Of a DNA stretch of 34,980 bases, positions 3,503-21,293 are shown piece by piece. The stretch covers positions 1 to 34,980 of the forward strand of contig NZ_JAFKRG010000003.1 in NCBI RefSeq assembly GCF_019038415.1, given 5' to 3'. This DNA is from Synechococcus sp. CCY 9618. Its GTDB lineage: Bacteria > Cyanobacteriota > Cyanobacteriia > PCC-6307 > Cyanobiaceae. Numbering within the stretch: position 1 is the first letter of the stretch; every line of letters begins with the position of its first letter. The position numbers were made by a program, and so were the translations under genes. The notes beneath the pieces are model-generated. The model saw only the letters and a list, made by a program, of their open reading frames with translations, made no database searches and was not told the DNA's origin.

Positions 3503-4018
3503 CGCGGGAGGGGCCGGCGGGGTGCCGGTCAGCAGGTTGATGCCGGAGAAGGCCAGGGCGAAGCCGAACAGGGTGCCGATGGCCCAGACGCTGTCGGAGG
3601 GCCACTCCACGATCAGCATCCCCCCCAGCACGGTGGTGACGATGCCGTCGAGCAGCACCAGCCCCCGGGCGGGCACCGCTCCGGCGGCCGCCCCGGCCAG
3701 CTCCATCACCCCCTCGATGGCCAGCAGGACGCCGATGAACAGGGTGAGGCTGATGGTGCTGGCCACCGGGAACAGCACCAGGCCGATGCCGCCGCCCACG
3801 TACAGCACCGCCGAGATGCCTCGGAAGATCTTGCTGCGGGTGTCGTCGGCGGAGGTGAGCCGCAGCAGCTGGGAGATGCCGGCGGCTATGGCCACCCCGC
3901 CCAGGGCGATGGTCAGCAGGGTGGCCGACACGAAGGGCAGGGCCAGGCAGAGCACCGCCGCCACGATCAGCAGGCCGGCGGTGACCCAGCGAAGAGTGGG
4001 GGAGGTGGGAATCGACAC
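3491..4018 (-). CDS. HdeD-like (DUF308) membrane protein
   Basis: This is a 175-residue polytopic membrane protein with about six hydrophobic segments in two similar halves of three. Glycine-rich turns (IALGGVAIAAG, LFIGVLLAIEG) mark each half, as in HdeD/DUF308 proteins. In E. coli HdeD is linked to acid resistance at high cell density; no molecular activity is established for most relatives, so none is claimed here. It ends in a Pro/Ala tail. It is convergent with ggt and divergent from the DUF2231-oxidase run, so it is probably transcribed alone from the 4019-4158 spacer. Confidence 0.8.
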   Translation of the reverse strand: MSIPTSPTLRWVTAGLLIVAAVLCLALPFVSATLLTIALGGVAIAAGISQLLRLTSADDTRSKIFRGISAVLYVGGGIGLVLFPVASTISLTLFIGVLLAIEGVMELAGAAAGAVPARGLVLLDGIVTTVLGGMLIVEWPSDSVWAIGTLFGFALAFSGINLLTGTPPAPPAPQA

Positions 4019-4158
4019 GAGCTTGGGGCGGCTGGGTCGAGGTTAGGCCGCCTGTCCATCGGCGAATCCCCACAGCGGCCGTCGCAAAGCATCACAGGAA
4101 ACACGGTTCCCCGGCTTTTCTCCCCACATTGGAAGGCCATGCCGGATCCCGTGCAGCC
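4019..4158. promoter_or_regulatory. Divergent intergenic region upstream of the oxidase run
   Basis: This 140-base spacer lies between the HdeD-like gene (reverse) and the first DUF2231 gene (forward). It is less GC-rich than the genes around it and must carry the promoter for the forward run unless an internal one exists. I could not assign convincing -10/-35 boxes or an operator by eye. Confidence 0.4.
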
Positions 4159-4656
4159 ATGTTCGAGTTGCTGCCACCGCTCAACGATCACAACCTGCCC
4201 TGGATGGACACGATCCATCCGATCGTGGTGCACTTCGTGATCGCCATGGCGGTGATCTCGGTGGTGTTCGATCTGATCGGCGTGCTGGCCCGCAAGCCCA
4301 ACCTCTTTGAGGTGAGCTTCTGGAATCTGCTGTTCGCCACCCTGGCGATCTTCGTGGCGATCATCTTCGGCCAGGTGGAGGCGGGCCTGGCCAATCCCTA
4401 TGGCGCCGCCAGCGAGATCCTCAACCTGCACAGCACCCTGGGCTGGTCCCTGGCCGGCGTGCTGTCGGTGCTCACCGCCTGGCGCTACGTGATCCGCAGC
4501 AAGGATCCCCAGCGGCTGCCCCTGGCTTTCCTGGCCGCCGGTGGGGTGCTGAGCGTGCTGGTGGCGGTGCAGGTGACCCTGGGCAACCAGCTGATCTGGG
4601 TCTACGGCCTGCACACGGTCAAGGTGGTGGAAGCGACGCGGGCGGGGCTGGTGTGA
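4159..4656 (+). CDS. DUF2231 membrane protein, first of a tandem pair
   Basis: This membrane protein has the DUF2231 signature near its N-terminus (MDTIHPIVVHFVIAMAV) and about four transmembrane segments. I chose the ATG at 4159 (165 residues) because the MFELLPPLNDHN start leads directly into the conserved domain. A TTG at 4129 would add ten non-conserved residues. The function of DUF2231 is not established; the paired histidines of HPIVVH are the obvious conserved polar residues and might bind a cofactor (inference). Its stop overlaps the next GTG (GTGA), so it is translationally coupled to a second DUF2231 gene and then to oxidase subunit II. This placement suggests a role in assembly or electron delivery for the oxidase. 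Confidence 0.82.
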   Translation: MFELLPPLNDHNLPWMDTIHPIVVHFVIAMAVISVVFDLIGVLARKPNLFEVSFWNLLFATLAIFVAIIFGQVEAGLANPYGAASEILNLHSTLGWSLAGVLSVLTAWRYVIRSKDPQRLPLAFLAAGGVLSVLVAVQVTLGNQLIWVYGLHTVKVVEATRAGLV

Positions 4657-5312
4657 GGGAGTTGCCTGATCTCCTGGCGGCGATGGCCCCGGCGGCGCTC
4701 TACCTGCCGCCGGACGCGCCGATCGACCAGCTGGCCTCCCGGCTGGGCCCCAACGACCTGCCCTACGCCCTGCCGATCCATCCCACCCTGGTGCACTTCA
4801 CGATCGGCCTGTTCGTGATCGCCATCGCCTTCGACATCGCCGGCGCCATCTATCCGCTCGAGAAGCGCCTGTTCCGCTTCCTGGCCCTGCCGGTCACCCG
4901 AGCCGGTCTGCACGACGTGGGCTGGTACAACCTGCTGGCCTGTGCGGCCGTGTCGTTCTTCACGGTGGCGGCCGGCTTCTACGAGATGCTGCTGGCGGTG
5001 CCCCTGCCGGGGGTCACCAGCAGCATCGGCCTGGAAAGCATGGCCACCATGCTCTGGCACGGCGTGGGCGGCGTGGCGATCCTGCTGGTGATCATCGCCA
5101 TGACGGTCTGGCGCGGCTACCAGCGCTTCGCCTGGCGCCATGAGCTGGGCCGCCAGGTGCAGTGGTCCTACCTGCTGGTGGGCCTGGTGCTCTACGGGGT
5201 GCTGGGCCTGCACGGCACCCTGGGCGCCGAACTGGCGGCCGAGTTCGGCGTGCATGTCACCGCCGACCAGCTGCTGGCCGCCGGCGCCGACCTGCGCGAG
5301 GCCCTGCCATGA
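4653..5312 (+). CDS. DUF2231 membrane protein, second of a tandem pair
   Basis: This 219-residue protein is related to the one before it. The core signature IHPTLVHFTIGLFVIAIAFD matches the HPxxVHF motif of its neighbour, and about four transmembrane segments follow. It is longer, with an N-terminal extension (residues 1-40) and a loop containing LPVTRAGLHDVGWYN before the second helix. It starts at a GTG overlapping the previous stop and its own stop overlaps the ctaC ATG (ATGA), so it belongs to the same transcript as the oxidase. The tandem pair may form a heterodimer (inference). The biochemical role is unknown. Confidence 0.82.
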   Translation: MRELPDLLAAMAPAALYLPPDAPIDQLASRLGPNDLPYALPIHPTLVHFTIGLFVIAIAFDIAGAIYPLEKRLFRFLALPVTRAGLHDVGWYNLLACAAVSFFTVAAGFYEMLLAVPLPGVTSSIGLESMATMLWHGVGGVAILLVIIAMTVWRGYQRFAWRHELGRQVQWSYLLVGLVLYGVLGLHGTLGAELAAEFGVHVTADQLLAAGADLREALP

Positions 5313-6268
5313 CCCCCTCCGCTCCCCCGGCGCGGCGCTTCCCCATCGCGGCCCTTGTGCTGATCGCGGCGGCCCTCGCCGCCGACGGCGCCGTCAGTCT
5401 CTGGATGGCCCGGACGTCCCACCACTGGCTGCCGGTGCAGGCCTCGGCGGCGGCCCCCTACGTCGACGACCTGTTCGCCCTCGAGACGGGCATCGGCAGC
5501 TTCATCTTCCTGGGCTGCTTCGCTGTGATGCTCTGGACGCTGCTGTTCAACCGGGCCCCCAAGTACGACATGGAGGACGGCGATCCGATCGAGGGCAACC
5601 TCAAGCTGGAGATCACCTGGACGATCATCCCCCTGGTGATCGTGATGCTGATCGCCATCCATGCGATCCGCGTCAGCAACACCCTGGCCACCATCGGCCC
5701 CAAGGAGCGGGTGCTGGGCGGGGAGCAGGCGCTGCAGGTGGCCGAAGGCGCCACGGCCACGGGTGCTGCCCCGGCTGCGGCCGACTACGGCCCGATCGAG
5801 GTGATCGCCCGGCAGTGGTCGTGGGAGTTCGTCTACCCCGACGGCACCCGCAGCGGCGAGCTGCACCTGCCGGTGGACCGGAGGGTGCGCTTCAAGCTGA
5901 TCTCCATGGATGTGCTGCACGGCTTCTACGTGCCCGCCTTCCGGCTCAAGCAGGACCTGATCCCCGGCAGCGTCATCGACTACAGCCTGGTGCCCACCCG
6001 CGAGGGCCGTTACAGGCTGCGGGATTCGATGTTCAGCGGCGGCTATTTCTCCACCAACCAGACCGACGTGGTGGTGGAGTCGGCCGGCACCTTTGAGCGC
6101 TGGCTGGCCGATGCCGCCCGCGCCCCCCTGCAGGAGAGCCCCAACGCCGCCCTGCAGCTCTGGCAGGCCCGCCTGGCCAAGGGCGACAAGGGCTGGGCCA
6201 CCGTGCCGCCGGCCCCCCCTCCGCTGGTCAACGTCATCCACGACCCCACCGCCCCCCACGAGGGCTGA
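5309..6268 (+). CDS. ctaC: Terminal oxidase subunit II lacking the CuA site
   Basis: This is subunit II of a heme-copper oxidase: an N-terminal hydrophobic segment, two transmembrane helices (about residues 47-68 and 95-115) and a periplasmic cupredoxin domain with RQWSWEFVYPDG and SMDVLHGFYVPAFRLKQDL. The first CuA-side histidine position is kept (His204). In the loop that normally supplies the two Cys, the Glu-carbonyl, the second His and the Met, the aligned residues are Asp239, Met241, Ser243, Phe247 and Asn250. The protein has no Cys outside the membrane part, so it cannot form CuA. This matches the alternative respiratory terminal oxidases (ARTO/cox3) of cyanobacteria, proposed to oxidise quinol rather than cytochrome c. 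The ATG at 5309 overlaps the DUF2231 stop; an upstream in-frame start at 5162 lies inside that gene and is unlikely. Residues about 131-155 are an Ala-rich insertion. Confidence 0.93.
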   Translation: MTPSAPPARRFPIAALVLIAAALAADGAVSLWMARTSHHWLPVQASAAAPYVDDLFALETGIGSFIFLGCFAVMLWTLLFNRAPKYDMEDGDPIEGNLKLEITWTIIPLVIVMLIAIHAIRVSNTLATIGPKERVLGGEQALQVAEGATATGAAPAAADYGPIEVIARQWSWEFVYPDGTRSGELHLPVDRRVRFKLISMDVLHGFYVPAFRLKQDLIPGSVIDYSLVPTREGRYRLRDSMFSGGYFSTNQTDVVVESAGTFERWLADAARAPLQESPNAALQLWQARLAKGDKGWATVPPAPPPLVNVIHDPTAPHEG

Positions 6269-6271
6269 ACC

Positions 6272-7963
6272 ATGGCCACCTCCGTTCCCTTCGATCCCCG
6301 GGTGCTCAAGGCCCCCCATCCGGTGCCCGGCGCGCCGGACAACTGGAAGCGCTTCTTCAGCTTCAACACCGACGCCAAGGTGATCGGCATCCAGTACATG
6401 GCGGTGGCGCTGCTGTTCCTGCTGGTGGGGGGCCTGCTGGCGATGATCATGCGCGGCGAACTGATCACCCCGCCGGCGGATCTCGTCGACCCCACGGTCT
6501 ACAACGGGCTCTACACCATGCACGGCACGGTGATGCTGTTCCTGTTCCTGTTCCCGATCCTGAACGGTTTCAACAACCTGCTGATTCCGCCCATGATCGG
6601 GGCACCGGACATGGCGTTCCCGAGGCTGAATGCCCTCGCCTTCTGGCTGTTCCCGCTGTTCGGGATCATCCTGATGGCCAGCTTCTTCGTGCCCGGGGGC
6701 CCCTCCGGATCGGGCTGGTGGGCCTATCCGCCGGTGAGCACCCAGAACCCCCTGGGCCATTTCATCAACGGCCAGTTCCTCTGGATCCTGGCGGTGGCCC
6801 TCTCGGGGGTGTCCTCGATCCTGGGGGCCATCAACTTCATCACCACGATCCTCCGCATGCGGGCCCCGGGCATGGGCTACTTCCGCCTGCCCATCTTCTG
6901 CTGGACGGCCCTCGCCGCCCAGACGATTCAGCTGATCGGTCTGCCGGTGCTCACCGGCGGGGCGGTGATGCTGCTGTTCGACCTCAGCTTCGGCACCAGC
7001 TTCTTCCGGCCCGAGGGGGGCGGTGATCCGATGCTCTACCAGCACTTCTTCTGGTTCTATTCCCACCCGGCCGTCTACGTGATGGTGCTGCCGGTGTTCG
7101 GCATCTTCTCCGAGCTGTTCCCCGTCTATGCCCGCAAGCCCCTGTTCGGCTACAAGGTGGTGGCGATCGCCTCCTTCGGCATCACCTTCCTGAGCCTGAT
7201 CGTGTGGGTGCACCACATGTTCTACAGCGGCACCCCCCAGTGGATGCGCAATCTGTTCATGGTCACCACCATGCTGATCGCCGTGCCCACTGGCATCAAG
7301 GTGTTCGCCTGGCTGGGCACCCTCTGGCGCGGCCGCATCCGGCTCAGCACGCCGATGCTGTTCTGCCTGGGCGGCCTGTTCAACTTCATCTTCGCCGGCA
7401 TCACCGGCATCATGCTGGCCACCGTGCCGGTGGACATTCACGTGGGCAACACCTACTTCGTGGTGGGTCATTTCCATTACGTCATTTTCTGCACCATCAC
7501 CTTCGGGGTGTTCGCCGGCATCTACCACTGGTTCCCCAAGTTCACCGGCCGGATGTACTACGAGGGGCTCGGCAAGCTCCATTTCGTGCTCACCTTCATC
7601 GGCAGCACCCTCAACTTCCTGCCCATGCACTGGGCCGGGCTGATGGGGATGCCCCGCCGCGTCGCCTCCTACGACCCGGAATTCGCCCTCGCCAATGTGC
7701 TCGCCAGCCTCGGCGCCTTCCTGCTGGGGGTGGCCACGATCCCCTTCATCCTCAACATCGTCAGCTCCTGGGCCCGGGGCCCCAAGGCCGGCCCCAACCC
7801 CTGGAGCGCCATCGGCCTGGAGTGGCTGCTGCCCTCGCCGCCCCCGGCGGAGAACTTCGAGGACGACGTGCCCACCGTGATCAGCGGCCCCTACGGCTAC
7901 GGCCTGGGCCAGCCCCTGGTGGAGCACCAGGAGCGCTATGTCGCCCGCGCCAAGGAGGCCTGA
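6272..7963 (+). CDS. ctaD: Terminal oxidase subunit I (A2-type heme-copper oxidase)
   Basis: This 563-residue, 12-helix catalytic subunit reduces O2 to water and pumps protons. All metal ligands are visible: heme-a His84 (TMHGTVM) and His402, heme-a3 His400 (GHFHYV), and CuB His265, His314 and His315. Tyr269 is the His-Tyr cross-link partner. The D-channel Glu of A1 enzymes is absent; the sequence is FYSHPAVY (Tyr263-Ser264), the hallmark of A2-type oxidases. The K-channel Lys343 (TGIKVF) is present. The start is 3 nt after ctaC. With the CuA-less subunit II this makes an ARTO-like quinol oxidase. I cannot tell from sequence whether it sits in the plasma or thylakoid membrane. Confidence 0.96.
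   Translation: MATSVPFDPRVLKAPHPVPGAPDNWKRFFSFNTDAKVIGIQYMAVALLFLLVGGLLAMIMRGELITPPADLVDPTVYNGLYTMHGTVMLFLFLFPILNGFNNLLIPPMIGAPDMAFPRLNALAFWLFPLFGIILMASFFVPGGPSGSGWWAYPPVSTQNPLGHFINGQFLWILAVALSGVSSILGAINFITTILRMRAPGMGYFRLPIFCWTALAAQTIQLIGLPVLTGGAVMLLFDLSFGTSFFRPEGGGDPMLYQHFFWFYSHPAVYVMVLPVFGIFSELFPVYARKPLFGYKVVAIASFGITFLSLIVWVHHMFYSGTPQWMRNLFMVTTMLIAVPTGIKVFAWLGTLWRGRIRLSTPMLFCLGGLFNFIFAGITGIMLATVPVDIHVGNTYFVVGHFHYVIFCTITFGVFAGIYHWFPKFTGRMYYEGLGKLHFVLTFIGSTLNFLPMHWAGLMGMPRRVASYDPEFALANVLASLGAFLLGVATIPFILNIVSSWARGPKAGPNPWSAIGLEWLLPSPPPAENFEDDVPTVISGPYGYGLGQPLVEHQERYVARAKEA
7163..7170. other. HIP1 octamer GCGATCGC
   Basis: This octamer lies within ctaD; another is at 2732-2739 in ggt. HIP1 (GCGATCGC) is over-represented in many cyanobacterial genomes. 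Two copies in a GC-rich 35 kb window are only weak support for a cyanobacterial origin. Confidence 0.5.
7952..7958 (+). promoter_or_regulatory. Strong Shine-Dalgarno for ctaE
   Basis: AAGGAGG lies 9 nt before the ATG at 7968, inside the last codons of ctaD. It decides the ctaE start against the in-frame ATG at 7938, which is within ctaD. Confidence 0.75.
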
Positions 7964-7967
7964 TTCC

Positions 7968-8579
7968 ATGACCGGCGTTCCCCTCGACACCGCCCCGGCC
8001 GACGTCGCCACCACCCATGGGGGCCATGGCACCCACGGCGGCTACAACCTTACCGGCTTCATCATCTTTCTCTGCTCCGAGAGCGTCATCTTCCTGGCGC
8101 TGTTCGTTGGCTACACCACCTTCAAGCTCTCCTCGCCGGTGTGGCTGCCGCCGGGGGTGGAGGGCCTCGAGGTGCGCGAACCGCTGATCAACACGATCAT
8201 CCTGGTGAGCAGCAGCTTCGTGGCCTGGGCGGCGGAGCGGGCCCTGGCCCGGCGGCGGATCTGGCGCTTCCGCGCCTGGTGGCTGCTCACCATGGCCATG
8301 GGCAGTTACTTCGTCTACGGGCAGGCGGTGGAGTGGTCCCAGCTGCGCTTCGGCCTCGGCGACGGGGTGTTCGGCGGCACCTTCTACCTGCTCACCGGCT
8401 TCCATGGCCTGCACGTGATCACCGGCATCCTGCTGATGGGGCTGATGCTGATCCGCTCCTTCCAGAAGGGCAACTACGACGGCGGTGAGGCGGGAGTGGT
8501 GTCGGTCTCCCTGTTCTGGCACTTCGTCGATGTGATCTGGATCGTGCTGTTCCTGCTGCTCTACATCTGGCAGCCATGA
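7968..8579 (+). CDS. ctaE: Terminal oxidase subunit III
   Basis: This is the COX3-family subunit of the oxidase, 203 residues, the short form with about five transmembrane helices. A His/Gly-rich N-terminus (THGGHGTHGG) precedes the first helix. Recognisable family motifs are the buried Glu of FLCSESVIF, GFHGLHVITGI and the C-terminal WHFVDVIWIVLF. The start is set by AAGGAGG at 7952. The stop overlaps the ATG of the following GMC flavoprotein by 4 nt, so the oxidase operon continues into sugar/alcohol-oxidation genes, an unusual extension. Confidence 0.94.
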   Translation: MTGVPLDTAPADVATTHGGHGTHGGYNLTGFIIFLCSESVIFLALFVGYTTFKLSSPVWLPPGVEGLEVREPLINTIILVSSSFVAWAAERALARRRIWRFRAWWLLTMAMGSYFVYGQAVEWSQLRFGLGDGVFGGTFYLLTGFHGLHVITGILLMGLMLIRSFQKGNYDGGEAGVVSVSLFWHFVDVIWIVLFLLLYIWQP

Positions 8580-10093
8580 TCATTGACGACCGCCACTACG
8601 ACGTCGCCATCGTCGGCAGCGGGGCCGCCGGGGCCACGCTGGCGGCGGAGCTGGCGGCGGCCGGCAAGGCGGTGCTGCTGCTGGAGCGGGGCGGGGCCAT
8701 GGCCCTGGCCGACCAGAACGTGGCCGATGTGGGCCTCTTCCGCCGCCAGCGCTACCACCCGGATGAGGCCTGGTTCGGGCCGGACGGCGATCCCTTCGCC
8801 CCCCAGATGATCTACGCGCTTGGCGGTAACACCAAGATCTGGGGCGGCGTGCTGGAGCGGATGCGGGAGCGGGAGTTCACCGGCCTGGCCCTGCAGGACG
8901 GCGCCTCCCCGGACTGGGAACTGCGCTACGAGGATCTGGCCCCCTGGTACGAGAAGGCCGAGGCCCTCTACCGGGTGCACGGCCGCTCCGGCATCGACCC
9001 CAGCGAGCCGCCCCGCAGCGCCGAGTTCCCCCATGCCCCCCGGCCGATCGAGCCCTTCCTCGAGGAACTGCGCCAGGGGCTGCAGCGCCGCGCCGTGCAC
9101 CCCTACCCCCTGCCCCTGAGCTGGTCCACCTCGGAGGAGGACCCCAGCGGTGATGCCGAGCGCTTCGGCCTGGAGCGCGCCGCCGCCGCCGCCTCCTACA
9201 CCCTGCGCTGCGGCGCCCGTGTGCGGGCCCTGCATGTGAATCCCTCCGGCACCGAGGTGCGCGGGGTGGAGGCCTGCATCGACGGCCGCAACTGGCTGTT
9301 CACGGCCCACCAGGTGGTGCTGGCCGCCGGCGCAGTTAACAGCGCGGCGATCCTGCTGCGCTCAGTGAGCGAGCCCCACCCGGACGGGCTTGCCAACGGC
9401 TCGGGCCAGGTGGGCCGCAACCTGATGAAGCCCCAGCTCACCTCGATCCTGCAGCTGGCTTCCAGCCCCAACTCGGGCCGCTATCCCCGCAGTCTCGGCG
9501 TCAACGACTACTACTGGGGTGACAAGAACGTGGACTTCCCCCTCGGGGCCATCCAGAGCGGTGGCGGGGTGTTGCAGGATCCCCTGTTCGCCGAATCGCC
9601 GCCGGTGCTCTCCCTGGTGACGAAGCTCCTGCCGGATGGGGCCCTGGAGGCCCTGGCACGGCGCTCGGTCTGCTGGTGGGCCATGAGTTCCGTTCTGCCG
9701 GATCCGGAGAACCGGCTCACCGTGCGGGGCGACCGCATCCAGATCAACTACGCGGCCAACTGCCTGGAGGCCCACGACCGGCTGGTCTACCGCTGGCTCG
9801 ACACGATCCAGGCGGTGGAGAAGGATCCCCTCATCCAGGTGGTGCGCGCCGCGCCGATCTACCCGCGGGGGGAGGCGCCCCTGGCGGTGATGGGCTACGC
9901 CAGCGGCACCTGCCGCATGGGCAGCGATCCGGCCACGTCGGTGGTGGATCTGGAGGGCCGCAGCCACCAGGTGGCCAACCTCTCGATCGCCGATGCCAGC
10001 ATCCTGCCGGGCTGTCCGGCGGTGGGGCCCGGCCTGACGGTGATCGCCAATGCCCTGCGCATCGCCGAGCGTCTCAAGGCCGACCTGGCATGA
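8576..10093 (+). CDS. GMC-family flavoprotein, probably catalytically altered
   Basis: This 505-residue protein has a GMC (glucose-methanol-choline) oxidoreductase fold: an N-terminal FAD dinucleotide motif VAIVGSGAAGATLA (about residues 10-23), GGNTKIWGG, and the C-terminal GTCRMGSDPATSVVDLEG plus IANALRIAERL. Compared with its paralogue at 12791, it carries Tyr441 where the active-site His of HxxGTC should be and Gly484 in place of the Asn of NPSLT. It also lacks the Cys cluster. It probably binds FAD but may not oxidise an alcohol by the usual His/Asn chemistry. It has no signal peptide. It is coupled to ctaE and followed 22 nt later by the glycosidase. A role as a non-catalytic partner or electron-transfer subunit of the second GMC protein is possible (inference). 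Confidence 0.88.
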   Translation: MIIDDRHYDVAIVGSGAAGATLAAELAAAGKAVLLLERGGAMALADQNVADVGLFRRQRYHPDEAWFGPDGDPFAPQMIYALGGNTKIWGGVLERMREREFTGLALQDGASPDWELRYEDLAPWYEKAEALYRVHGRSGIDPSEPPRSAEFPHAPRPIEPFLEELRQGLQRRAVHPYPLPLSWSTSEEDPSGDAERFGLERAAAAASYTLRCGARVRALHVNPSGTEVRGVEACIDGRNWLFTAHQVVLAAGAVNSAAILLRSVSEPHPDGLANGSGQVGRNLMKPQLTSILQLASSPNSGRYPRSLGVNDYYWGDKNVDFPLGAIQSGGGVLQDPLFAESPPVLSLVTKLLPDGALEALARRSVCWWAMSSVLPDPENRLTVRGDRIQINYAANCLEAHDRLVYRWLDTIQAVEKDPLIQVVRAAPIYPRGEAPLAVMGYASGTCRMGSDPATSVVDLEGRSHQVANLSIADASILPGCPAVGPGLTVIANALRIAERLKADLA

Positions 10094-10115
10094 GCGGCCG
10101 CAGCGGGGGGCGGCC

Positions 10116-12794
10116 ATGAAGGAGCGCGCCGAAGCCGGCCGCATGGCGGAACGTGACCAGGGGCTGATGCCCTGGAACCTCTGGGGCACCTACCTGAGCG
10201 ACCGCCAGTGGGGCACGGTGCGGGAGGACTACTCCGCCGACGGCGACGCCTGGCGCTCCTTCCCCCACGACCATTCCCGCTCGCGGGTCTACCGCTGGGG
10301 GGAGGACGGCCTGCTGGGGCTGTGCGACCAGGAGTGCCGGCTGTGCTTCTCGGTGGCGCTCTGGAACGGCGTCGATCCGATCCTCAAGGAACGGCCCTTC
10401 GGGCTGGGCAACCCGGAGGGCAACCACGGCGAGGACATCAAGGACTATTTCTTCCACCTCGATGCCACCCCCACCGGCAGCTTCATGCGGGGGCTCTACA
10501 AGTACCCCCAGGGGCGCTTCCCCTACGAGCGGCTGATCGAGGAGAACGGAAGCCGCAGCCGGGAGCAGCCGGAGTTCGAGCTGGTGGACACCGGCCTCTT
10601 CGACGCCGACCGCTACTTCGATGTCTTTGTGGAGTACGCCAAGGAGGCCCCCACTGACCTGCTGATCCGCCTGCGGGTGGTGAACCGGGGGCCCGAGCCG
10701 GCGCCCCTCACCCTGTTGCCCAGCCTGTGGCTGCGCAACACCTGGGACTGGGGCTACCCCGACGAGCTGCCCCAGCAGCTGCGGCTGCTCGACGACCGCG
10801 TCGTCTCCACCGCCATCCCCACCCTGGGGGTCTATGAGCTGCTCTGCGACCAGGCCGGCGAGTGGATCTTCACCGACAACGCCACCAACACCGAACGCCT
10901 CTGGGGCGTCCCCAACACCACCCCCTTCCAGAAGGACGGCTTCCATCGTCACCTGATCGAGGCGGAGGCGGGCGCCATCAACCTGGCCGGAGTGGGCAGC
11001 AAGGCCGCCCGGCTGCTGCGGCGCACCCTGGCCCCCGGCGAGGAATGGAGCGTGGCCCTGCGGCTGCGGGCCGTGCCGGAGCACCCAGCCGCGCCCGGCC
11101 CCGAGCCCCTGCCACCCCTGTTTGGCGCGGCGTTCGCGGCGACCTTCGCCCAGCGCCAGGAGGAGGCCCGCCTGTTCCTGGCCGACCTTCAGCAGGACCT
11201 CAGCGACGACGACCGGCTGATCCACACCAGCGCCCTGGCGGGGCTGCTGTGGTGCCGCAAGTACTACGGCTGGAGCGTGCTGCGCTGGCTGGAGGGGGAT
11301 CCCACCCAGCCGCCGCCGCCGGCCGGCCGCTGGCACAGCGGGGCGGGCTACTGGAAGCGGCTGCATGCCCACGACATCATCTCCATGCCGGATTCCTGGG
11401 AGTACCCCTACTTCTGCCAGTGGGACCTGATGTTCCACGCCGTGGCCTTCGCCGAGATCGATCCGACCGTGGCCAAGGAGCAGTGCATGCTGCTGCGCTC
11501 GGCCCACTACACCGCCCCCAACGCCCAGACCCCCGCCTACGAATGGGCCCTCTCCGATCCCAACCCGCCGATCGGGGCCTGGGCGGCGCTGCGGATCTTC
11601 CAGATCGAGAGGCGCCAGAGCGGCCGCGGCGATGGGGCCTTCCTGCGCTCGGCGCTGCGCAAGCTGCTGCTGGAGTACGGCTGGTGGGCCAACCGCAACG
11701 ACCGCTCCGGCGACAACGTCTTCGAGGGGGGCTTCCTGGGCCTCGACAACATCGCCGTCTTCGACCGGCGCTTCCCCCTGGCCGACGGCAGCCGCATCGA
11801 GCAGTCGGATGGCACCGCCTGGATGGCTTCCCTGAGCCTCAACCTGCTGGCCATCTCTGTGGAGCTGAGCTGCGAGGAGCCCGAATACGCCGATGCCTGC
11901 GAGCGCTTCGTCTGTGATTTCGTGCAGCTCAACCTGGCTCTCAACTCTCCCTACGAGCGCGACTTCCTCAACTGGGACCACGAAGATGGCTTCTACTACG
12001 ACGTCATCCGCCGCCCGGACGGCAGCAGCGACTACCTGCGCACCCGCTCCGTGTCGGGCCTGATTCCCCTGCTGGCGGTGGCCAGCTTCGACCGCGCCAC
12101 GGTGGAGCGGCTGCCGGTGCTCGATGTGGCCGAAAGCATGGCCTGGTTCGTGCACGAGCGCACCACGCCCACCTGGATGGAGCGCAACCTGGGCCAGTGG
12201 CATGGCGACCGGCTGCTCTTCTCCCTGGTGCCGGAGGACCGGCTGCGCCGCATCTGCGCGCGCTTGTTTGATGAGGAGGAGTTCCTCTCCCCCCACGGCA
12301 TCCGCTCCCTTTCCAGGGTGTACGGCGAGCATCCCTACAGCTACACCGAGGGCAGCGAGACCGAGACCCTGGCCTACAGCCCCGGCGCCAGTCCGGTGGC
12401 CATGTTCGGCGGCAATTCCAACTGGCGCGGGCCGGTGTGGATGCCGATCAACTTCCTGCTGATCGAATCCCTGCAGAAGTTCGCCCACTTCTACGGCGAC
12501 AGCTTCCAGGTGGAGTTCCCCACCGGCTCGGGCCGGCTGATGGACCTCTGGCAGATCTCCCTGGAACTGGAGAAGCGCCTGGTGGGGATCTTGCGCCGCG
12601 ACGGCCAGGGCCGGCGGCCCTTCCTGGGCGCGCAGGAGCTTTTCCAGAACGATCCCCACTGGCGCGACCGGATCCAGTTCCACGAGTACTTCCATGGCGA
12701 TGACGGCCACGGCATCGGCGCCTCCCACCAGACGGGCTGGAGCGCCATGGTGGCCAAGATGATCGGCCAGCTCAGCCGTTACCCGGTGGAATGA
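10116..12794 (+). CDS. GH63 / MGH1-like glycoside hydrolase
   Basis: This is a large (892-residue) glucosidase-like protein. An N-terminal beta-rich part (to about residue 350) precedes an (alpha/alpha)6-barrel catalytic part with WEYPYFCQWDLMFHA, NVFEGGFLGLDNIAVFD and NSNWRGPVWMPINFLL, all typical of the bacterial GH63/MGH1-like group annotated as mannosyl-oligosaccharide glucosidase-like. Known bacterial relatives hydrolyse alpha-glucosides, mannosylglycerate or glucosylglycerate; the substrate here cannot be read from sequence. There is no signal peptide, so it is cytoplasmic. I chose the ATG at 10116, preceded by a G-rich stretch at 10105-10110; the ATG at 10143 is an alternative. The stop overlaps the next ATG (ATGATGA). 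It sits between two GMC genes, suggesting it releases a sugar that they oxidise. Confidence 0.9.
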   Translation: MKERAEAGRMAERDQGLMPWNLWGTYLSDRQWGTVREDYSADGDAWRSFPHDHSRSRVYRWGEDGLLGLCDQECRLCFSVALWNGVDPILKERPFGLGNPEGNHGEDIKDYFFHLDATPTGSFMRGLYKYPQGRFPYERLIEENGSRSREQPEFELVDTGLFDADRYFDVFVEYAKEAPTDLLIRLRVVNRGPEPAPLTLLPSLWLRNTWDWGYPDELPQQLRLLDDRVVSTAIPTLGVYELLCDQAGEWIFTDNATNTERLWGVPNTTPFQKDGFHRHLIEAEAGAINLAGVGSKAARLLRRTLAPGEEWSVALRLRAVPEHPAAPGPEPLPPLFGAAFAATFAQRQEEARLFLADLQQDLSDDDRLIHTSALAGLLWCRKYYGWSVLRWLEGDPTQPPPPAGRWHSGAGYWKRLHAHDIISMPDSWEYPYFCQWDLMFHAVAFAEIDPTVAKEQCMLLRSAHYTAPNAQTPAYEWALSDPNPPIGAWAALRIFQIERRQSGRGDGAFLRSALRKLLLEYGWWANRNDRSGDNVFEGGFLGLDNIAVFDRRFPLADGSRIEQSDGTAWMASLSLNLLAISVELSCEEPEYADACERFVCDFVQLNLALNSPYERDFLNWDHEDGFYYDVIRRPDGSSDYLRTRSVSGLIPLLAVASFDRATVERLPVLDVAESMAWFVHERTTPTWMERNLGQWHGDRLLFSLVPEDRLRRICARLFDEEEFLSPHGIRSLSRVYGEHPYSYTEGSETETLAYSPGASPVAMFGGNSNWRGPVWMPINFLLIESLQKFAHFYGDSFQVEFPTGSGRLMDLWQISLELEKRLVGILRRDGQGRRPFLGAQELFQNDPHWRDRIQFHEYFHGDDGHGIGASHQTGWSAMVAKMIGQLSRYPVE

Positions 12795-14416
12795 TGACCG
12801 CTCCCTTCACCCCCGGCACCGTGCTGGATCCCCTGCCGGCGGCCGCCCAGCTGGAGGTGGCCGATGGCGCCCACTTCGATGTGGTGATCATCGGCAGCGG
12901 CGCCGGCGGCGGCACCCTCGCCGGGCGGCTGGCGGCCAGCGAGCTGCGGGTGCTGGTGCTGGAGCGGGGCGACTGGCTGCCCCAGGAGCCCCAGAACTGG
13001 AGCGCCGAGGAGGTGTTCCAGAAGGGCCGCTACGTGTCGGCCGATCTCTGGCGCGACCGGCATGGCAAGAGCTTCCAGCCCGGCAGCCACTACTTCGTGG
13101 GCGGCGCCACCAAGATGTACGGCGCCGCCCACTTCCGCCTGCGGGAGCGGGATTTCGAGGCGGTGGAGCACGTGGATGGCATCTCGCCGGCCTGGCCCCT
13201 GCGCTACGCCGACTTCGAGCCCTGGTATCAGCGGGCCGAGGAGCTGTATCAGGTGCACGGCCAGCGGGGGGAGGATCCCACCGAACCGCCCTGCAGCGGC
13301 CCCTACCCCCACCCGCCGGTGGCCCATGAGCCGCGCATGCAGAAGCTGGTCGACGACCTGCGCGGCGCCGGTCTGCACCCCTTCCATGCCCCCAGCGGCG
13401 TCCGGCTAGAGGAGGGGGCCATGCCCTTCAGCCGCTGCCGCAAGTGCAACTGCTGCGACGGCTTCCCCTGCCTGGTGCACGCCAAGTCGGACGCCGAGGT
13501 GCTGGGCATCCGGCCGGCGCTGGCCTCACCGCGGGTGAGCCTGCTGACCCGTGCCCACGTGCAGCGGCTCGAGACCGACGCCGGCGGTCGCAGCGTGCGG
13601 CGGGTGCACTTCGAGCGGGACGGGGTGCCCGCCAGCGTGTCCGGGGATGTGGTGGTGGTGAGCTGCGGCGCGGCCAACTCCGCCCGGCTGCTGCTGATGT
13701 CGGCCTGCGACGGCCACCCCCGGGGCCTGGCCAACGGTTCCGACCAGGTGGGGCGCAACTACATGTTCCACAACAGCAAAGCGATGGTGGCCCTGGCCCA
13801 TGAGCCCAATCCCACCGTGTTCCAGAAGACGGTGTCGGTCAACGACTGGTATTTCGGGGATGCCGATTTCCAGTGGCCGATGGGCAATCTGCAGATGACC
13901 GGCAAGACCAACGGCACGATGATGAAGGGCTACGCGCCGCTGGAAACCTTCCTGATGCCGGGCTGGACGATGGACAAAATCGCCGAGCACGCCCTCGATT
14001 TCTGGATCTCCACCGAGGATCTGCCCGATCCGGACAACCGCGTCAGCGTGGACGCCGGCGGCACGATCACCCTGAGCTACACGCCCAACAACCAGAAGGC
14101 GTCGCAGGAGCTGGTGCGGCGGCTGGAAGCGGTGCTGGAGCGGCTCTACCTGAAGAAGCACCTGGTGGAGCGCCAGATCTACATCCAGAGCCCCATGACG
14201 ATCGCGGCGGTGGGCCACCAGAGCGGCACCTGCCGTTTCGGCAGCGATCCGGCCACGTCGGTGCTGGATCTGAACTGCAAGGCCCACGAGCTCGACAACC
14301 TCTACGTGGTGGACACCAGCTTCATGCCCAGCATCGGCGCCGTGAACCCCTCCCTGACCGCCATCGCCAATGCCCTGCGGGTGGGCGAGCACCTGCTGGA
14401 GCGGCTCGGCCGCTGA
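12791..14416 (+). CDS. GMC-family oxidoreductase with Cys cluster
   Basis: This 541-residue FAD-dependent sugar/alcohol dehydrogenase or oxidase has the FAD motif VVIIGSGAGGGTLAG (about residues 32-46), GGATKMYGAAHFRLRERDF, and a C-terminal GMC_C region with the active-site pair His476 (GHQSGTCRFG) and Asn519 (VNPSLTAIANALR), both intact. Residues 216-227 form CRKCNCCDGFPC, five closely spaced Cys. This recalls the iron-sulphur region of membrane-coupled GMC dehydrogenases and suggests electron transfer onward, for example to quinone, rather than directly to O2. It is a paralogue of the GMC gene at 8576. It starts at an ATG overlapping the glycosidase stop. There is no signal peptide or Tat motif. 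Confidence 0.92.
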   Translation: MMTAPFTPGTVLDPLPAAAQLEVADGAHFDVVIIGSGAGGGTLAGRLAASELRVLVLERGDWLPQEPQNWSAEEVFQKGRYVSADLWRDRHGKSFQPGSHYFVGGATKMYGAAHFRLRERDFEAVEHVDGISPAWPLRYADFEPWYQRAEELYQVHGQRGEDPTEPPCSGPYPHPPVAHEPRMQKLVDDLRGAGLHPFHAPSGVRLEEGAMPFSRCRKCNCCDGFPCLVHAKSDAEVLGIRPALASPRVSLLTRAHVQRLETDAGGRSVRRVHFERDGVPASVSGDVVVVSCGAANSARLLLMSACDGHPRGLANGSDQVGRNYMFHNSKAMVALAHEPNPTVFQKTVSVNDWYFGDADFQWPMGNLQMTGKTNGTMMKGYAPLETFLMPGWTMDKIAEHALDFWISTEDLPDPDNRVSVDAGGTITLSYTPNNQKASQELVRRLEAVLERLYLKKHLVERQIYIQSPMTIAAVGHQSGTCRFGSDPATSVLDLNCKAHELDNLYVVDTSFMPSIGAVNPSLTAIANALRVGEHLLERLGR

Positions 14417-14432
14417 GGGGGTGTCGCTCAGC
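14400..14432. terminator. Hairpins spanning two convergent stop codons
   Basis: AGCGGC-TCG-GCCGCT (14400-14414) overlaps GCTGAG-N9-CTCAGC (14412-14432). The second repeat contains the TGA of the forward GMC gene in one arm and the stop of the reverse DoxX gene in the other. It is a candidate bidirectional terminator ending the long oxidase run. No T-tract is seen. Confidence 0.35.
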
Positions 14433-14916
14433 TTCCGGCCAGGCCCGTCAGGGCCAGCAGGCGGGGCAGGACCAGGGCGTCAAGGCTGAAGCGGCCGGCG
14501 CCGGCGGTGGCCAGCACCAGGCACATCACGACATACATGGCCGCCTTCTCCCAGCTGGGCGGATCTCCCACCCCCATCGGCCCGGCGTAGTCGCCCGCGG
14601 GAATCTGGAAGGGGTCGGGGGCGATGAAGGGGAACCCGGAGCGGATCTCCAGCACCATGGCGTAGGCCATCGACACCAGGATCGCCAGGGCCGCCAGGGG
14701 GGTGAGCAGGCCCGGCAGCAGGGCGATGCCGCCCGCCCACATGGAGAAGGCCGAGAGGAAGCAGAGCCACACCGGTGTGTTCAGGGCCGCGGCCCAGGTG
14801 CCCAGGTGGCGCAGCTTGGGCCAGCCGTGGCGGATGAAGGCCACCGCCAGGAACAGCCGCAGGACCAGCAGGCCCACGGCTGCGGCGGTGCTGGGGGGCT
14901 GCAGCCAGTCGCTCAT
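14428..14916 (-). CDS. DoxX-family membrane protein
   Basis: This 162-residue protein has four transmembrane helices and the DoxX pattern: VGLLVLRLFLAVAFIRHGWPKL at the start, a central PLAALAILVSMAYAM helix, and a short periplasmic loop before the last helix. DoxX proteins are membrane subunits or partners of quinone-reactive enzymes and of thiol/redox complexes. The start is the ATG at 14916, which overlaps the stop of the upstream secreted-protein gene (ATGA); the same frame stays open farther upstream only as a shadow. It ends 11 nt from the convergent GMC gene. Confidence 0.85.
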   Translation of the reverse strand: MSDWLQPPSTAAAVGLLVLRLFLAVAFIRHGWPKLRHLGTWAAALNTPVWLCFLSAFSMWAGGIALLPGLLTPLAALAILVSMAYAMVLEIRSGFPFIAPDPFQIPAGDYAGPMGVGDPPSWEKAAMYVVMCLVLATAGAGRFSLDALVLPRLLALTGLAGS

Positions 14917-15293
14917 CGGGGCGGGCCGTTGTAGAGGATGGCCATCACCCGGCGGCCGTCCGGGGCGATCTGGATCTCGGTTTCGGTGGTGGCCGCCATC
15001 CCCTTCACCTCCCAGCCCGGAGGGCCGCCCAGGAAGCGGTAGACGAAGCCGTCGGCGGTGTTGCTCACCAGGCAGGGGTTGCTGGCCGCCGAGGTGGTGA
15101 ACATGCAGTTGGCCGGGGTGTAGACCGTCAGCCCGCCATTGCTGAGCACGGCCGCGTTGCGGGCCAGGTTGAGGGCCCGCACTTCGTTGAAGGGGGTCCC
15201 CTGCGCCCAGGCAGGGGTCATCGGGGCGGCCGCCAGCATCAGTGCGGCTCCGGTTGGCAGCAGGCGTCTCCGGAGACGGGAGCGGAGGGCCAT
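14913..15293 (-). CDS. Small secreted protein, unknown function
   Basis: I do not recognise this 126-residue protein. The ATG at 15293 gives a clear signal peptide: basic ALRSRLRRRLL, a hydrophobic core and a likely cut after PAWA (about residue 31). The mature part is about 95 residues, with two Cys (NCMFTT and NPCLVS) that may form a disulphide, and ends in ILYNGPPR. An upstream in-frame start at 15347 would bury the signal peptide and is less likely. It is translationally coupled to the DoxX gene, suggesting a periplasmic partner of that membrane protein. Confidence 0.7.
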   Translation of the reverse strand: MALRSRLRRRLLPTGAALMLAAAPMTPAWAQGTPFNEVRALNLARNAAVLSNGGLTVYTPANCMFTTSAASNPCLVSNTADGFVYRFLGGPPGWEVKGMAATTETEIQIAPDGRRVMAILYNGPPR

Positions 15294-15376
15294 TGGGATC
15301 CGTGCGACTGGCTCCAGTATCGAGCCGGTCTTCCTTCCCCACAACACGCCTGGCCTGAATCTCCCCTGGGGGCCGA

Positions 15377-16357
15377 TCAGGGGGCGGCAACAAGCTGGAG
15401 ACGGTGGCCGTCGGGATCGGCGATCTGCAGGGCCCGGCCGGCCTCCAGCCAGGGTTCCGCCAGGGACACGATGCCCGGCGAGAGCACGGTGCCGCCGAAA
15501 CTGCTCACCTGCTCGGCCACCCCATCGAGATCGTCGACCCGCACCCGCACCTGCCAGTGGGCCAGATCCTGGAAGCCCAGGTCGGCGGGCATGGGCCGGC
15601 CGCGATTGGGGGCCAGGTACTCCAGCGCCTCCAGGCCCATCCCCCGGGCGGCCCGGTGGGCGGTGATTCTCACCTGGACATTCGGCAGGCCATCGAGCCG
15701 CTCCTGCTCCGGCCCTTGGTTGATCCCGTCGGCTGCCTGGTGGAAGCCGAGCAGATTCCCATAGAACCGGGCGGTGCGGGCCGTGTCGGCCACGGCGATG
15801 GCGCTGTGGTCGAGGCCCTTGAAGCGGCCCGGCAGCCGGTGCCAGCGGGGATCCCCTTTGTCGGCGGGGAACTGCAGCAGCTCGATCGGATGGCCCTCGG
15901 GATCGTGGAACTTGAAGGCCTCGATGCCGGCCGCCGCCCGGTTCCAGGCCGGCAGCCGCTGGGGGGCGCTGGAGATGGCCACCAGCGCCCCGCCGGCGAT
16001 ACGGCGTCGCACCCCGGTGGACGCCGCCTCCATGGCGTCCACCACCACGCAGATGTGCTGGAACCAGCGGTCGCAGCTGCGGGACTCGGCGGGCAGGGGC
16101 CGCCCTGCGCGGGCTCCCCGCCCTGGATCCAGCACCTCACTGAGCTCCAGCCGTTCACTGCCCAGCCGCAGGTGCACCAGCTTCAGCCGTGCTCCGGGCA
16201 GACCCACCAGCTGGGTGTAGGGACCAGGGGGCACCAGGATCGCGCCCCCCTCGGCCTGGAAGCCCAGCTCCCGGCGGAAGAAGGCAGCGGCGGCCTCGGC
16301 ATCGGTCGTGGTGAAGCCGACGCTCTCGATCACGGGAACGGTGGGGGCTGGCGGCAT
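15377..16357 (-). CDS. Two-domain VOC (glyoxalase/dioxygenase-like) protein
   Basis: This 326-residue protein consists of two to three beta-alpha-beta-beta-beta VOC units. The N-terminal unit starts IESVGFTTTDAEAAAAFF, a central part has WFQHICVVVDAMEAA and FKFHDPEGHPIELLQFP, and the C-terminal unit runs from GLDHSAIAVADTARTARFY to QIADPDGHRLQLV. Typical metal-ligand positions occur in WFQHI, HPIELL and LDHSA. The VOC superfamily includes extradiol dioxygenases, glyoxalase I and resistance proteins, so the substrate is not decided. It lies 15 nt downstream of the SMP-30 gene on the same strand, probably in one operon. Confidence 0.85.
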   Translation of the reverse strand: MPPAPTVPVIESVGFTTTDAEAAAAFFRRELGFQAEGGAILVPPGPYTQLVGLPGARLKLVHLRLGSERLELSEVLDPGRGARAGRPLPAESRSCDRWFQHICVVVDAMEAASTGVRRRIAGGALVAISSAPQRLPAWNRAAAGIEAFKFHDPEGHPIELLQFPADKGDPRWHRLPGRFKGLDHSAIAVADTARTARFYGNLLGFHQAADGINQGPEQERLDGLPNVQVRITAHRAARGMGLEALEYLAPNRGRPMPADLGFQDLAHWQVRVRVDDLDGVAEQVSSFGGTVLSPGIVSLAEPWLEAGRALQIADPDGHRLQLVAAP

Positions 16358-16372
16358 CAGGGGCTGGGGTGT

Positions 16373-17278
16373 TCAGGGCAGCTGGACGCCGCGGGTGTTC
16401 ACGTACAGGGCGTAGACGGCCGGGGCCGCGCAGATGAACAGCCGATTGCGGAAGGCCCCTCCGAAACAGAGGTTGGCCACCAGGGAGGGCACCAGCACCC
16501 GGCCCAGCAGGGTGCCGTCCGGGGCGAGGCAGTGGACACCGTCGCCGGCGCTGCTCCAGACGTTGCCCTGCTCGTCCACCCGCAGGCCGTCGGCCCAGCC
16601 GGGCTCGATGCGGTGGAAGACGCCGCCGCCGCTGAGGCTGCGGCCGTCGGCCCCCACGTCGAAGACGCGGATGTGGCGATCCGGGGCCGGATCCCCCACC
16701 GCGCCGGTCTCCACCAGGTAGAGCCGCCGTTCATCGGGGGAGAAGGCGAGGCCGTTGGGGCCGGCCATGTCGCTCACCACCCGCTCCAGTTCACCGGAGG
16801 CCGGATCGAGGCGGTAGACGGCGGCCGGCTGCTCAGAGTCCTGGCGGCCGCCCTCGTAGTCGGTGGCGATGCCGTAGAGGGGATCGGTGAACCAGAGGCT
16901 CCCGTCCGACTTCACCACCACGTCATTGGGGGAATTGAGCCGCTGGCCGTCGGCCCGGCTCACCAGGGTGGTGAGGCTGCCGTCGATCTCCAGCCGGGTG
17001 AGGCTGCGGGAGCGGTGATGGCAGCTGATCAGGCGGCCCTGCAGGTCGCGGCACTGGCCGTTGGCGTAGTCGCTGCTGGGGCGGAACACGCTCACGCCGC
17101 CGGCCTCGCTCCAGCGCAGGGTGCGGTTGTTGGGGATGTCGTTGAACAGCAGGCAGCCGTGGTCGGCGAACCAGACCGGTCCTTCGCACCAGCGCAGCCC
17201 GTCGGCGATGGTCTCCAGTTCGGCGTTGAACAGCACCAGGCCGTCGAAGCGCGGGTCGTGGCTGACGGTGCGGGCCAT
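16373..17278 (-). CDS. SMP-30 / gluconolactonase-like lactonase
   Basis: This 301-residue six-bladed beta-propeller of the SMP-30/gluconolactonase/LRE family hydrolyses sugar lactones with a divalent metal. The expected ligands are visible: Glu32 (WCEGPVW), Asn175 (GPNGLAFS) and Asp230 (WADGLRVD), plus the substrate-side Asn118 (NSPNDVVV). There is no signal peptide, so it is cytoplasmic. Its start codon overlaps the cupin stop by 1 nt (TGATG). With a sugar-dehydrogenase-like SDR divergent from this operon and GMC dehydrogenases nearby, a lactonase acting on gluconolactone-type products is a reasonable fit (inference). Confidence 0.9.
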   Translation of the reverse strand: MARTVSHDPRFDGLVLFNAELETIADGLRWCEGPVWFADHGCLLFNDIPNNRTLRWSEAGGVSVFRPSSDYANGQCRDLQGRLISCHHRSRSLTRLEIDGSLTTLVSRADGQRLNSPNDVVVKSDGSLWFTDPLYGIATDYEGGRQDSEQPAAVYRLDPASGELERVVSDMAGPNGLAFSPDERRLYLVETGAVGDPAPDRHIRVFDVGADGRSLSGGGVFHRIEPGWADGLRVDEQGNVWSSAGDGVHCLAPDGTLLGRVLVPSLVANLCFGGAFRNRLFICAAPAVYALYVNTRGVQLP

Positions 17279-17751
17279 CAGGAGAACGCGCCGGGGCGTG
17301 CCCCGCGCCAGCCGTCACCGTTGCGCTGCAGGATCAGCTGAACACAGGGCTCATCCCCCACCTGGCCGGAGAGATGGCCGAAACGCCCATCCGCCGTGGG
17401 CACCGTGTCCTGGTCGCCGCCGAAGCTGAAGCTGCCCGGGCCGAAGACCTGCCGGTGGCCGTCCATGCTCTTCACGAACCAGCTGCCGCTCAGCACGAAG
17501 ATCCATTTAGGCACGGTGTTCTCGTGCCATTCGCCGAGCCAGCCCACCGGCAGCACGGTGAGGAAGGCGTTGCCGTCGGCCACCAGATCCAGATTCCACT
17601 GGGAGGCGACGCCGGGGTTCAGGGCCGCCCGGGTCATGGCGCCCAGGGGGGTGAGGTCCTGGCGGCTGATGCCCCCGTCGTCGGTCCACAGGTGCCAGTA
17701 GGCGGTCGGGGTGCCGCTGGGCGGGGCTCCCGTGCTGGAGGTGTCGCTCAT
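17278..17751 (-). CDS. Cupin-domain protein
   Basis: This 157-residue protein has a single cupin beta-barrel: the VLPVGWLGEWHENTVPKWIFVLSG half (residues about 66-89) and the second strand pair VFGPGSFSFGGDQDT. The metal-binding His pattern is partial (one His in GEWHEN), so binding of a small molecule without classical metal catalysis is possible. It is the first gene of the reverse-strand cupin-lactonase-VOC operon, and the spacer to the divergent SDR gene is 81 nt. The function is unknown. Confidence 0.78.
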   Translation of the reverse strand: MSDTSSTGAPPSGTPTAYWHLWTDDGGISRQDLTPLGAMTRAALNPGVASQWNLDLVADGNAFLTVLPVGWLGEWHENTVPKWIFVLSGSWFVKSMDGHRQVFGPGSFSFGGDQDTVPTADGRFGHLSGQVGDEPCVQLILQRNGDGWRGARPGAFS

Positions 17752-17832
17752 GGCCGCAAGTTAGTTACGGCCGGCGGCTCTGTCGGCAGGGCGGTTCAGC
17801 GTTGATACCCTGCGGCCAGACGCCAGGAACCG
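17752..17832. promoter_or_regulatory. Shared divergent promoter region (cupin operon / SDR)
   Basis: This 81-base spacer lies between two divergent start codons, so both promoters must lie here or extend into the genes. It includes GTTGATACC (about 17801-17809) facing the SDR gene and, on the reverse strand, TAACTAAC close to the cupin ATG, as possible -10-like elements. An AGGAA Shine-Dalgarno at 17825-17829 precedes the SDR ATG. The box assignments are tentative. Confidence 0.35.
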
Positions 17833-20760: not shown

Positions 20761-20892
20761 GGGAGCTGCCCGTCTGGGCGAACGCTATCGGCGCAGGCCC
20801 GGTTCAGCCCCCCCTCTGGTTCGACACCCCGTCGGGATGGACACGCCGCCAGCGTCGCCGGTTCGCTAACGGTGGGGCAACCGCAGCGACCG

Positions 20893-21096: not shown

Positions 21097-21293
21097 TTGG
21101 GCCCGTCGTTTGTTGACCCATCGGTGGATCATCAGCAAGCTCGCCGCTGGAGGCCATCAGGCGACTCTCGGAACGATGCGATCAAGATCCTGTCGCAGCT
21201 CCCTGCTTGAGAGTGGATCCCGGGCGCCGGCCCAGAGGCCACGACCCTGCCGCTGCTGGATGCAACAGAAATCTGCTGGGCGGACCGGTGGGC
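21097..21293. other. Intergenic stretch between convergent genes
   Basis: About 197 bases lie between the zinc-ribbon gene and NDH-2 copy 2. The stretch has somewhat more A/T than the surrounding genes. I find no convincing ORF, RNA or terminator hairpin with a T-tract in it. Confidence 0.4.

Follow-up and report, generated by a model that had tools for sequence, protein, structure and literature searches.

The 34,980-nucleotide stretch analyzed here (the window) is one entire contig (NZ_JAFKRG010000003.1) of the 2.93-Mb assembly of Synechococcus sp. CCY 9618. It carries a same-strand run of eight genes, from 4159 to 14416 on the plus strand, in which the genes of a terminal oxidase that is, by its sequence, of the alternative respiratory terminal oxidase (ARTO) type are followed by a GMC-fold gene (GMC1), a GH63-like glycosidase gene, and a second GMC gene (GMC2). 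The new point to emerge is that GMC1 belongs to an ARTO-bound GMC clade without the catalytic pair. The first-pass annotation of the window had described eight genes on one strand, and Pfam backed the name of each. The features are as follows.

4159..4656, +, DUF2231 membrane protein A (Pfam DUF2231, 126.1 bits)
4653..5312, +, DUF2231 membrane protein B (Pfam DUF2231, 127.1 bits)
5309..6268, +, ctaC, ARTO subunit II without CuA ligands (Pfam COX2, COX2_TM)
6272..7963, +, ctaD, ARTO subunit I (Pfam COX1, 523.4 bits)
7968..8579, +, ctaE, ARTO subunit III (Pfam COX3, 117.6 bits)
8576..10093, +, GMC1, ARTO-linked GMC-fold protein (Pfam GMC_oxred_C, 58.7 bits)
10116..12794, +, GH63-like glycosidase, 892 aa (Pfam MGH1-like_GH, Glyco_hydro_63)
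12791..14416, +, GMC2, GMC oxidoreductase with His476/Asn519 intact and a Cys-rich loop (Pfam, alignment)
14428..14967, -, DoxX family membrane protein (Pfam DoxX), convergent neighbor outside the plus-strand run

The genes are tightly packed. Four of the seven junctions are 4-nt overlaps (4653-4656, 5309-5312, 8576-8579, and 12791-12794), one fewer than first counted, and the remaining three are gaps of only 3, 4, and 22 nt. The start of the GH63 gene is uncertain; another in-frame ATG lies nine codons downstream, and its use would widen the gap before this gene. A consensus scan of 3900-14700 found no sigma-70-like promoter (mean of 0.6 in shuffled sequences), and the five terminator-like sites in the same interval (mean of 3.2 in shuffles) were all intragenic, with none at a junction. 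The run stops at the convergent junction with the DoxX gene.

The gene order is more than chance, since it recurs complete in 23 of the 42 genomes of the genus (the window counted; one truncated by a contig end). However, the second GMC gene and the glycosidase gene did not always accompany the first. Three genus genomes carried GMC1 and GH63 with no GMC2 behind them (G005, G031, and G040; G and L numbers denote genomes and loci), and in six others ARTO was followed by GMC1 alone, with GH63 and GMC2 not beside it (G007, G018, G021, G023, G029, and G034). The 1.7-Mb genome G341 likewise keeps ARTO-GMC1 without GH63 or GMC2 beside it. In the remainder of the genus, the parts were split in G017, and nine genomes were contig-broken or incomplete. 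On the other hand, a GMC gene lay within 3.5 kb behind ctaE on the same strand at all 40 ctaE places in the genus (one G017 gene counted twice) and at 20 of 20 ctaE places in other genera of the family. The ctaE-GMC1 order is therefore steady, GMC1 being constant and GH63-GMC2 optional. This means that the GMC-glycosidase-GMC run, first described as one cassette, is not a fixed unit, because GMC1 stays with ARTO in genomes where the other two genes do not adjoin it. In G017, GMC1-GH63-GMC2 occurs a second time (L080:6420-9545), some 11 kb away from the ARTO-GMC1 operon that is complete in that genome. Ahead of this copy stand two DUF2231 genes and a 54% match to ctaE, and nothing matching ctaC or ctaD lies between the DUF2231 genes and ctaE.

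The linkage extended well beyond the family. In a phylum sample of 386 cyanobacterial genomes, matches were assigned to the GMC1 clade at 470 bits or more and to ARTO-type CtaC at 196 bits or more, both cut-offs being chosen by eye at gaps in the lists. A GMC1-clade match was found in 48 genomes, and all 48 also had an ARTO-type CtaC. In 47 of these, the GMC1-clade gene shared contig and strand with ctaC and lay 2.3 to 5.2 kb downstream of it; in the remaining genome, G235, the two are separated by a contig end. Within the family of the window, both ARTO and the GMC1 clade were present in 25 genomes, and both were absent from 33. The 470-bit cut-off can miss clade members that have the Cys loop, Trichormus being an example. 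Named loci extending the link came from Hydrocoleum, Moorena, Nodosilinea, Leptolyngbya, Phormidesmis, Oculatella, Brasilonema, Rhizonema, Trichormus, and others; in these loci, which were chosen by their GMC, a GMC gene stood behind ctaE at 26 of 30 ctaE places. The Trichormus variabilis ATCC 29413 locus, on plasmid A (L164:3448-17545), has an ARTO-GMC operon followed by two cydAB-type pairs, hypB, and feoB. A lack of conservation beyond one strain had been named at the outset as what would speak against the linkage; since the linkage is kept this widely, that objection does not apply.

Analysis of the GMC1 protein showed that its active site is altered. In an alignment with GMC2 and the flavin adenine dinucleotide (FAD) glucose dehydrogenase, GMC1 of the window has Tyr441 at the position of the catalytic His and Gly484 at that of the catalytic Asn. 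GMC proteins were then scored as linked when their gene shared the strand of ctaE and lay no more than 3.5 kb downstream of it, so that GMC2 of the window, 4.2 kb downstream, counts as unlinked. Four of 84 GMC1 rows were dropped for being shorter than 440 residues, and identical rows, which came from overlapping or doubly fetched regions, were collapsed (linked, 107 to 100; unlinked, 91 to 88). The catalytic Asn was present in none of the 99 distinct linked rows with a residue at this position (65 Gly, 28 Ser, 4 Pro, and 2 Thr; one further row had a gap), and the catalytic His was present in 12 of 100. By comparison, both residues were intact in 91 of the 96 unlinked rows. The five exceptions include two near contig ends (L171 and L182), two gapped at the site (L226 and L233), and one real case (L178). 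The loss was not limited to the pair. Trp70, Lys232, and Lys346 (GMC2 numbering), invariant in the 88 distinct intact rows, survive in just 6, 7, and 15 linked rows out of 100, respectively. The Cys-rich loop, deleted in GMC1 of the window, is absent from nearly all linked rows; the 6 of 107 that retain it all branch early within the ARTO clade. In a tree of 122 rows, built by a quick method with a midpoint root, an ARTO clade of 54 rows, 51 of them linked, was separated from 68 unlinked rows with an SH-aLRT support of 100; of the three unlinked rows inside the clade, L171 and L182 come from near contig ends, and L178 is a real exception. The catalytic pair thus appears to have been lost once, with the altered state then passed on by descent.

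Other features of the protein were retained. Gly14, Gly16, Gly19, and Glu37 of the FAD dinucleotide motif are invariant, and the ratio of nonsynonymous to synonymous substitution rates (dN/dS) against two close relatives was 0.15 to 0.17, a sign of purifying selection. The predicted structure (pLDDT, 90.7) matched the large subunit of fructose dehydrogenase over its full length (Z, 45.8; root mean square deviation, 2.8; 462 residues aligned). We infer from the motif and the model that GMC1 binds FAD, and because fold, motif, and purifying selection are kept, it is probably a repurposed accessory flavoprotein of ARTO. Two candidate features of GMC1 were considered and dropped: a redox-active CXXC (CGTC), because the window has SGTC and many unlinked relatives also have CGTC, and a glucose dehydrogenase-like Fe-S cluster, because the Cys loop is deleted. 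A comparison with PHROGs gave no useful match.

The oxidase is without CuA, as first proposed. All 97 aligned rows of ARTO CtaC have Asp and Ser in place of the CuA Cys pair, and in 96 of them the next His is Phe, whereas the CuA-bearing CtaC of the same genome, used as a positive control for the alignment, has both Cys residues. The heme and CuB ligands H106, H284, H333, H334, H419, and H421 (CyoB numbering) are retained in 94 of 94 subunit I rows. The picture is different for the residues R71, D75, H98, and Q101 of Escherichia coli CyoB, which we take to form the high-affinity bo3 quinol site; not one of them is retained in any of the 94 ARTO subunit I rows. Therefore, the label "quinol oxidase" is unsupported by that site, and the earlier suggestion that the enzyme probably uses quinol is weakened by the missing residues.

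The two DUF2231 proteins show a conserved His pattern that could hold heme. In protein A, His 20, 25, 91, and 152 are retained in 92 to 94 of 94 rows, and in protein B, His 43, 48, 136, 187, and 201 are retained in 93 to 96 of 96 rows. The predicted structure of protein A (pLDDT, 83.9) is a four-helix bundle. This fold was compared with the PDB to see whether DUF2231 might be a diheme cytochrome b, and the structural matches were unspecific: the best Foldseek match in the PDB had an E value of 0.12 (a cytochrome bd-type oxidase chain), and the VIA-align list consisted mainly of oxidase subunit III and designed bundles with Z scores of 12 to 15. A search of the open-access literature for DUF2231 with heme or oxidase found nothing beyond a cysteine database.

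GMC2 and the GH63-like protein appear to form a unit of their own. GMC2 keeps His476 and Asn519, as do all 32 GMC2 rows, the window counted. Its conserved Cys-rich loop, a candidate source of 3Fe-4S ligands, has its first Cys in 91 of 96 unlinked rows, but the spacing of the loop differs from that of the compared glucose dehydrogenase stretch. The GH63-like protein scored 62.4 bits against MGH1-like_GH (cut-off, 27) and 31.9 bits against Glyco_hydro_63 (cut-off, 22.4), and no obvious signal peptide was found when judged by eye. GH63 adjoins GMC2 in 14 of the 14 family genomes that have GMC2. Of 25 other cyanobacterial genomes encoding a GMC2-type protein (at least 530 bits), 11 have GH63 no farther than 15 kb from it, as counted by hand from the listed places. 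Beyond cyanobacteria, an intact GMC with GH63 in its flank was found on contigs named Ignavibacteria, Acidobacteriota, Bacteroidetes, and Saprospiraceae, for example. Because the pair co-occurs in other families and outside cyanobacteria, GH63-GMC2 looks like an old sugar-processing unit that was later joined to the ARTO operon in the window's family. The genome has a second GH63-like gene, about 50% identical (L103:4533-9735), which adjoins a molybdopterin oxidoreductase-like gene, as identified by eye with no family search.

Behind the operon, the window (14428-22724) contains DoxX, VOC, and SMP-30 genes on the minus strand, SDR and ion channel genes on the plus strand, and two NDH-2-like genes on the minus strand. 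Plasmids of Nostoc and Paraburkholderia also carry DoxX, VOC, SMP-30, and SDR in the vicinity of intact GMC genes, and other cyanobacteria have subsets of the DoxX/VOC/SMP-30/SDR/ion channel/NDH-2 set close to an intact GMC gene or an ARTO-type oxidase. Six loci picked for closely spaced matches illustrate this. Two of them (L251 and L252) hold ARTO, GH63, GMC, SMP-30, SDR, and NDH-2 within 17 kb, and the other four (L253-L256) have ARTO-like oxidases with SMP-30, DoxX, and GMC, as well as VOC in three of the four; the GMC proteins of all six have both His and Asn. Outside the family, a GMC2-type protein was within 15 kb of an ARTO-type CtaC in 5 of 25 genomes (G101, G166, G243, G344, and G373). 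The proposed tie between sugar oxidation and the oxidase is borne out to this extent, in that subsets of GH63, intact GMC, the SMP-30 lactonase, DoxX, VOC, SDR, and NDH-2 recur around ARTO-type oxidases of other cyanobacterial families. Such recurrence speaks for a functional tie, not for the exact chain that had been proposed. The L256 copy, near the ARTO-like oxidase of G422, is however broken by seven stops (L256:8033-9484). A further GMC with an intact pair was noted about 2 kb ahead of the quinol oxidase genes cyoA, subunit III, and cyoD in Lichenicola cladoniae (L166:7989-15418).

Several known systems resemble parts of this operon. First, the ARTO/Qox operon of Anabaena sp. PCC 7120, alr2729-alr2730-coxB3-coxA3-coxC3, likewise has two genes before subunits II, I, and III and a subunit II without CuA; in the excerpts of the source (PMC6616624), it stops at subunit III, whereas the window adds a GMC-fold gene overlapping ctaE and then GH63-GMC2. 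Presumably, alr2729 and alr2730 are the DUF2231 pair. The statement that known ARTO operons end at subunit III thus holds for the Anabaena operon as quoted, but not in general, since 48 of the 96 ARTO genomes in our sample carry the GMC1 clade. Second, the FAD fructose dehydrogenase and FAD glucose dehydrogenase (PDB 9jqa and 8grj) are the nearest solved folds for GMC1 and the nearest sequences for both GMC proteins. Compared to these enzymes, GMC1 is without His, Asn, and Cys loop and GMC2 keeps His and Asn, and Pfam identified no cytochrome c or small chaperone-like subunit among the eight genes of the window. Third, MftG of mycobacteria is, like GMC1, a GMC-superfamily protein tied to respiration and a precedent for a GMC protein feeding respiration. 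However, MftG oxidizes mycofactocinol, its membership in an oxidase operon is not seen in the excerpts of the source (PMC11778925), and both GMC proteins of the window fall far below the MftG model cut-offs. Finally, CtFDO of Chaetomium thermophilum, as excerpted from PMC8171062, is a GMC protein with an altered His-Ser pair and no strong substrate. The same pair occurs in some ARTO-linked GMC proteins, but CtFDO is a fungal glycoprotein, and most ARTO-linked GMC proteins have lost the His as well. A search of the open-access literature, supplements not covered, found among the papers listed none on a GMC-ARTO link or on an ARTO-bound altered GMC clade.

We propose that this picocyanobacterial run is an ARTO operon with two modules, GMC1 being an accessory of ARTO, not a sugar oxidase, and GH63-GMC2 a sugar oxidation unit that feeds the quinone pool or a partner; this reading has, in our estimate, about an even chance of being correct. 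The first module would comprise DUF2231-DUF2231-ctaC-ctaD-ctaE-GMC1, with GMC1 as the steady companion of ARTO. GMC1 would derive from a sugar- or alcohol-oxidizing GMC type whose catalytic pair was lost in the lineage, and would most likely be an FAD-binding oxidase accessory, with a role in electron entry, sensing, or assembly. The assignment to ARTO is made because the FAD fold is kept and because GMC1 remains beside ARTO even where GH63 and GMC2 are missing. The second module, GH63-GMC2, would sit behind the first in part of the family. Here, GMC2 would most likely oxidize a sugar or glycoside that GH63 releases or processes, and SMP-30 may act as a lactonase beside this path. The electrons from GMC2 would enter the membrane quinone pool or reach a partner, from where ARTO or another oxidase would draw them. 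A sugar-to-oxygen path through GMC2 remains plausible.

Certain observations weigh against this proposal. Half of the ARTO-type CtaC genomes (48 of 96, out of 386 sampled) are without the GMC1 clade at the 470-bit cut-off, so ARTO does not need GMC1 everywhere; consistent with this, no GMC gene was found behind ctaE at any of 14 places from clade-negative ARTO genomes (1.2 to 4.3 kb examined). An ARTO-clade GMC with His-Ser and no adjoining oxidase exists on a contig named Richelia sp. UBA3308 (L178:9001-10491). Moreover, because the pair was lost in one lineage, the linked rows are not independent trials, and the basal members of the ARTO clade have His-Ser, the same pair as the fungal CtFDO.

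A bolder version of the accessory role is a tentative possibility: GMC1 and the two possibly heme-holding DUF2231 proteins of the same operon may together be the real electron-entry or control unit of ARTO. If true, ARTO would be a terminal oxidase equipped with a flavin module dedicated to it, which could bear on the tie of ARTO to Fe(III) reduction. Excerpts of earlier reports link ARTO to iron reduction and uptake, tying it to low iron (PMC10119275 and PMC7676907), and to heterocyst respiration (PMC6616624).

It is also conceivable, but in our judgment unlikely, that GMC1 is still an oxidoreductase that uses a different donor and new active-site residues. The retained FAD motif, fold, and purifying selection would fit such an enzyme, as would clade-specific near-invariant residues such as Q77 and Y405 and the His-Ser pairs of some members. 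According to the excerpts of PMC8171062, catalysis by CtFDO is unsettled. Its case is a warning that an enzyme is not necessarily inactive when the pair is changed. However, the old His position is highly variable in the clade (Y, N, G, H, F, and others), unlike a conserved catalytic site.

The first-pass annotation itself had offered a self-contained path: a sugar set free by GH63 is oxidized by both GMC enzymes, the electrons pass to quinone, and ARTO consumes the quinol. The tight packing of the genes, the intact pair of GMC2, GH63 beside GMC2 in several families, and sugar-related genes near ARTO-type oxidases in other families all favor it. Yet both GMC enzymes can hardly oxidize sugar in one path when GMC1 has neither the catalytic His nor the Asn; furthermore, the modules are separate in many genomes, and ARTO subunit I is without the bo3 quinol-site residues. 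We therefore regard the path in this complete form as quite improbable.

Still more doubtful is the idea that the genes are merely coexpressed, for example, under low iron or in dark respiration, with no direct electron or protein link. Operon packing by itself is no proof of a shared pathway, and the low-iron tie of ARTO noted above (excerpts of PMC10119275 and PMC7676907) would suit coexpression. On the other side, the ctaE-GMC1 order holds across many families, and the GMC behind ctaE was always of the altered type in the rows examined. That GMC1 is a gene in decay that has simply traveled with ARTO, as the loss of the catalytic pair and the Cys loop might suggest, is extremely improbable and was rejected on the dN/dS of 0.15 to 0.17, full-length frames in many families and more than 60 invariant residues across 59 sequences pointing the same way.

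Taken as an ARTO accessory, the GMC look-alike linked to this oxidase in many cyanobacteria suggests an unrecognized partner of ARTO. With its catalytic pair lost, this conserved member of the operon offers a direct handle on ARTO assembly, respiration, and iron reduction, for an oxidase that shows neither CuA nor bo3 quinol-site residues in its sequence. Should GMC2-GH63 feed into the same chain, a route from sugar to oxygen that bypasses NAD(P)H would be open to these picocyanobacteria.

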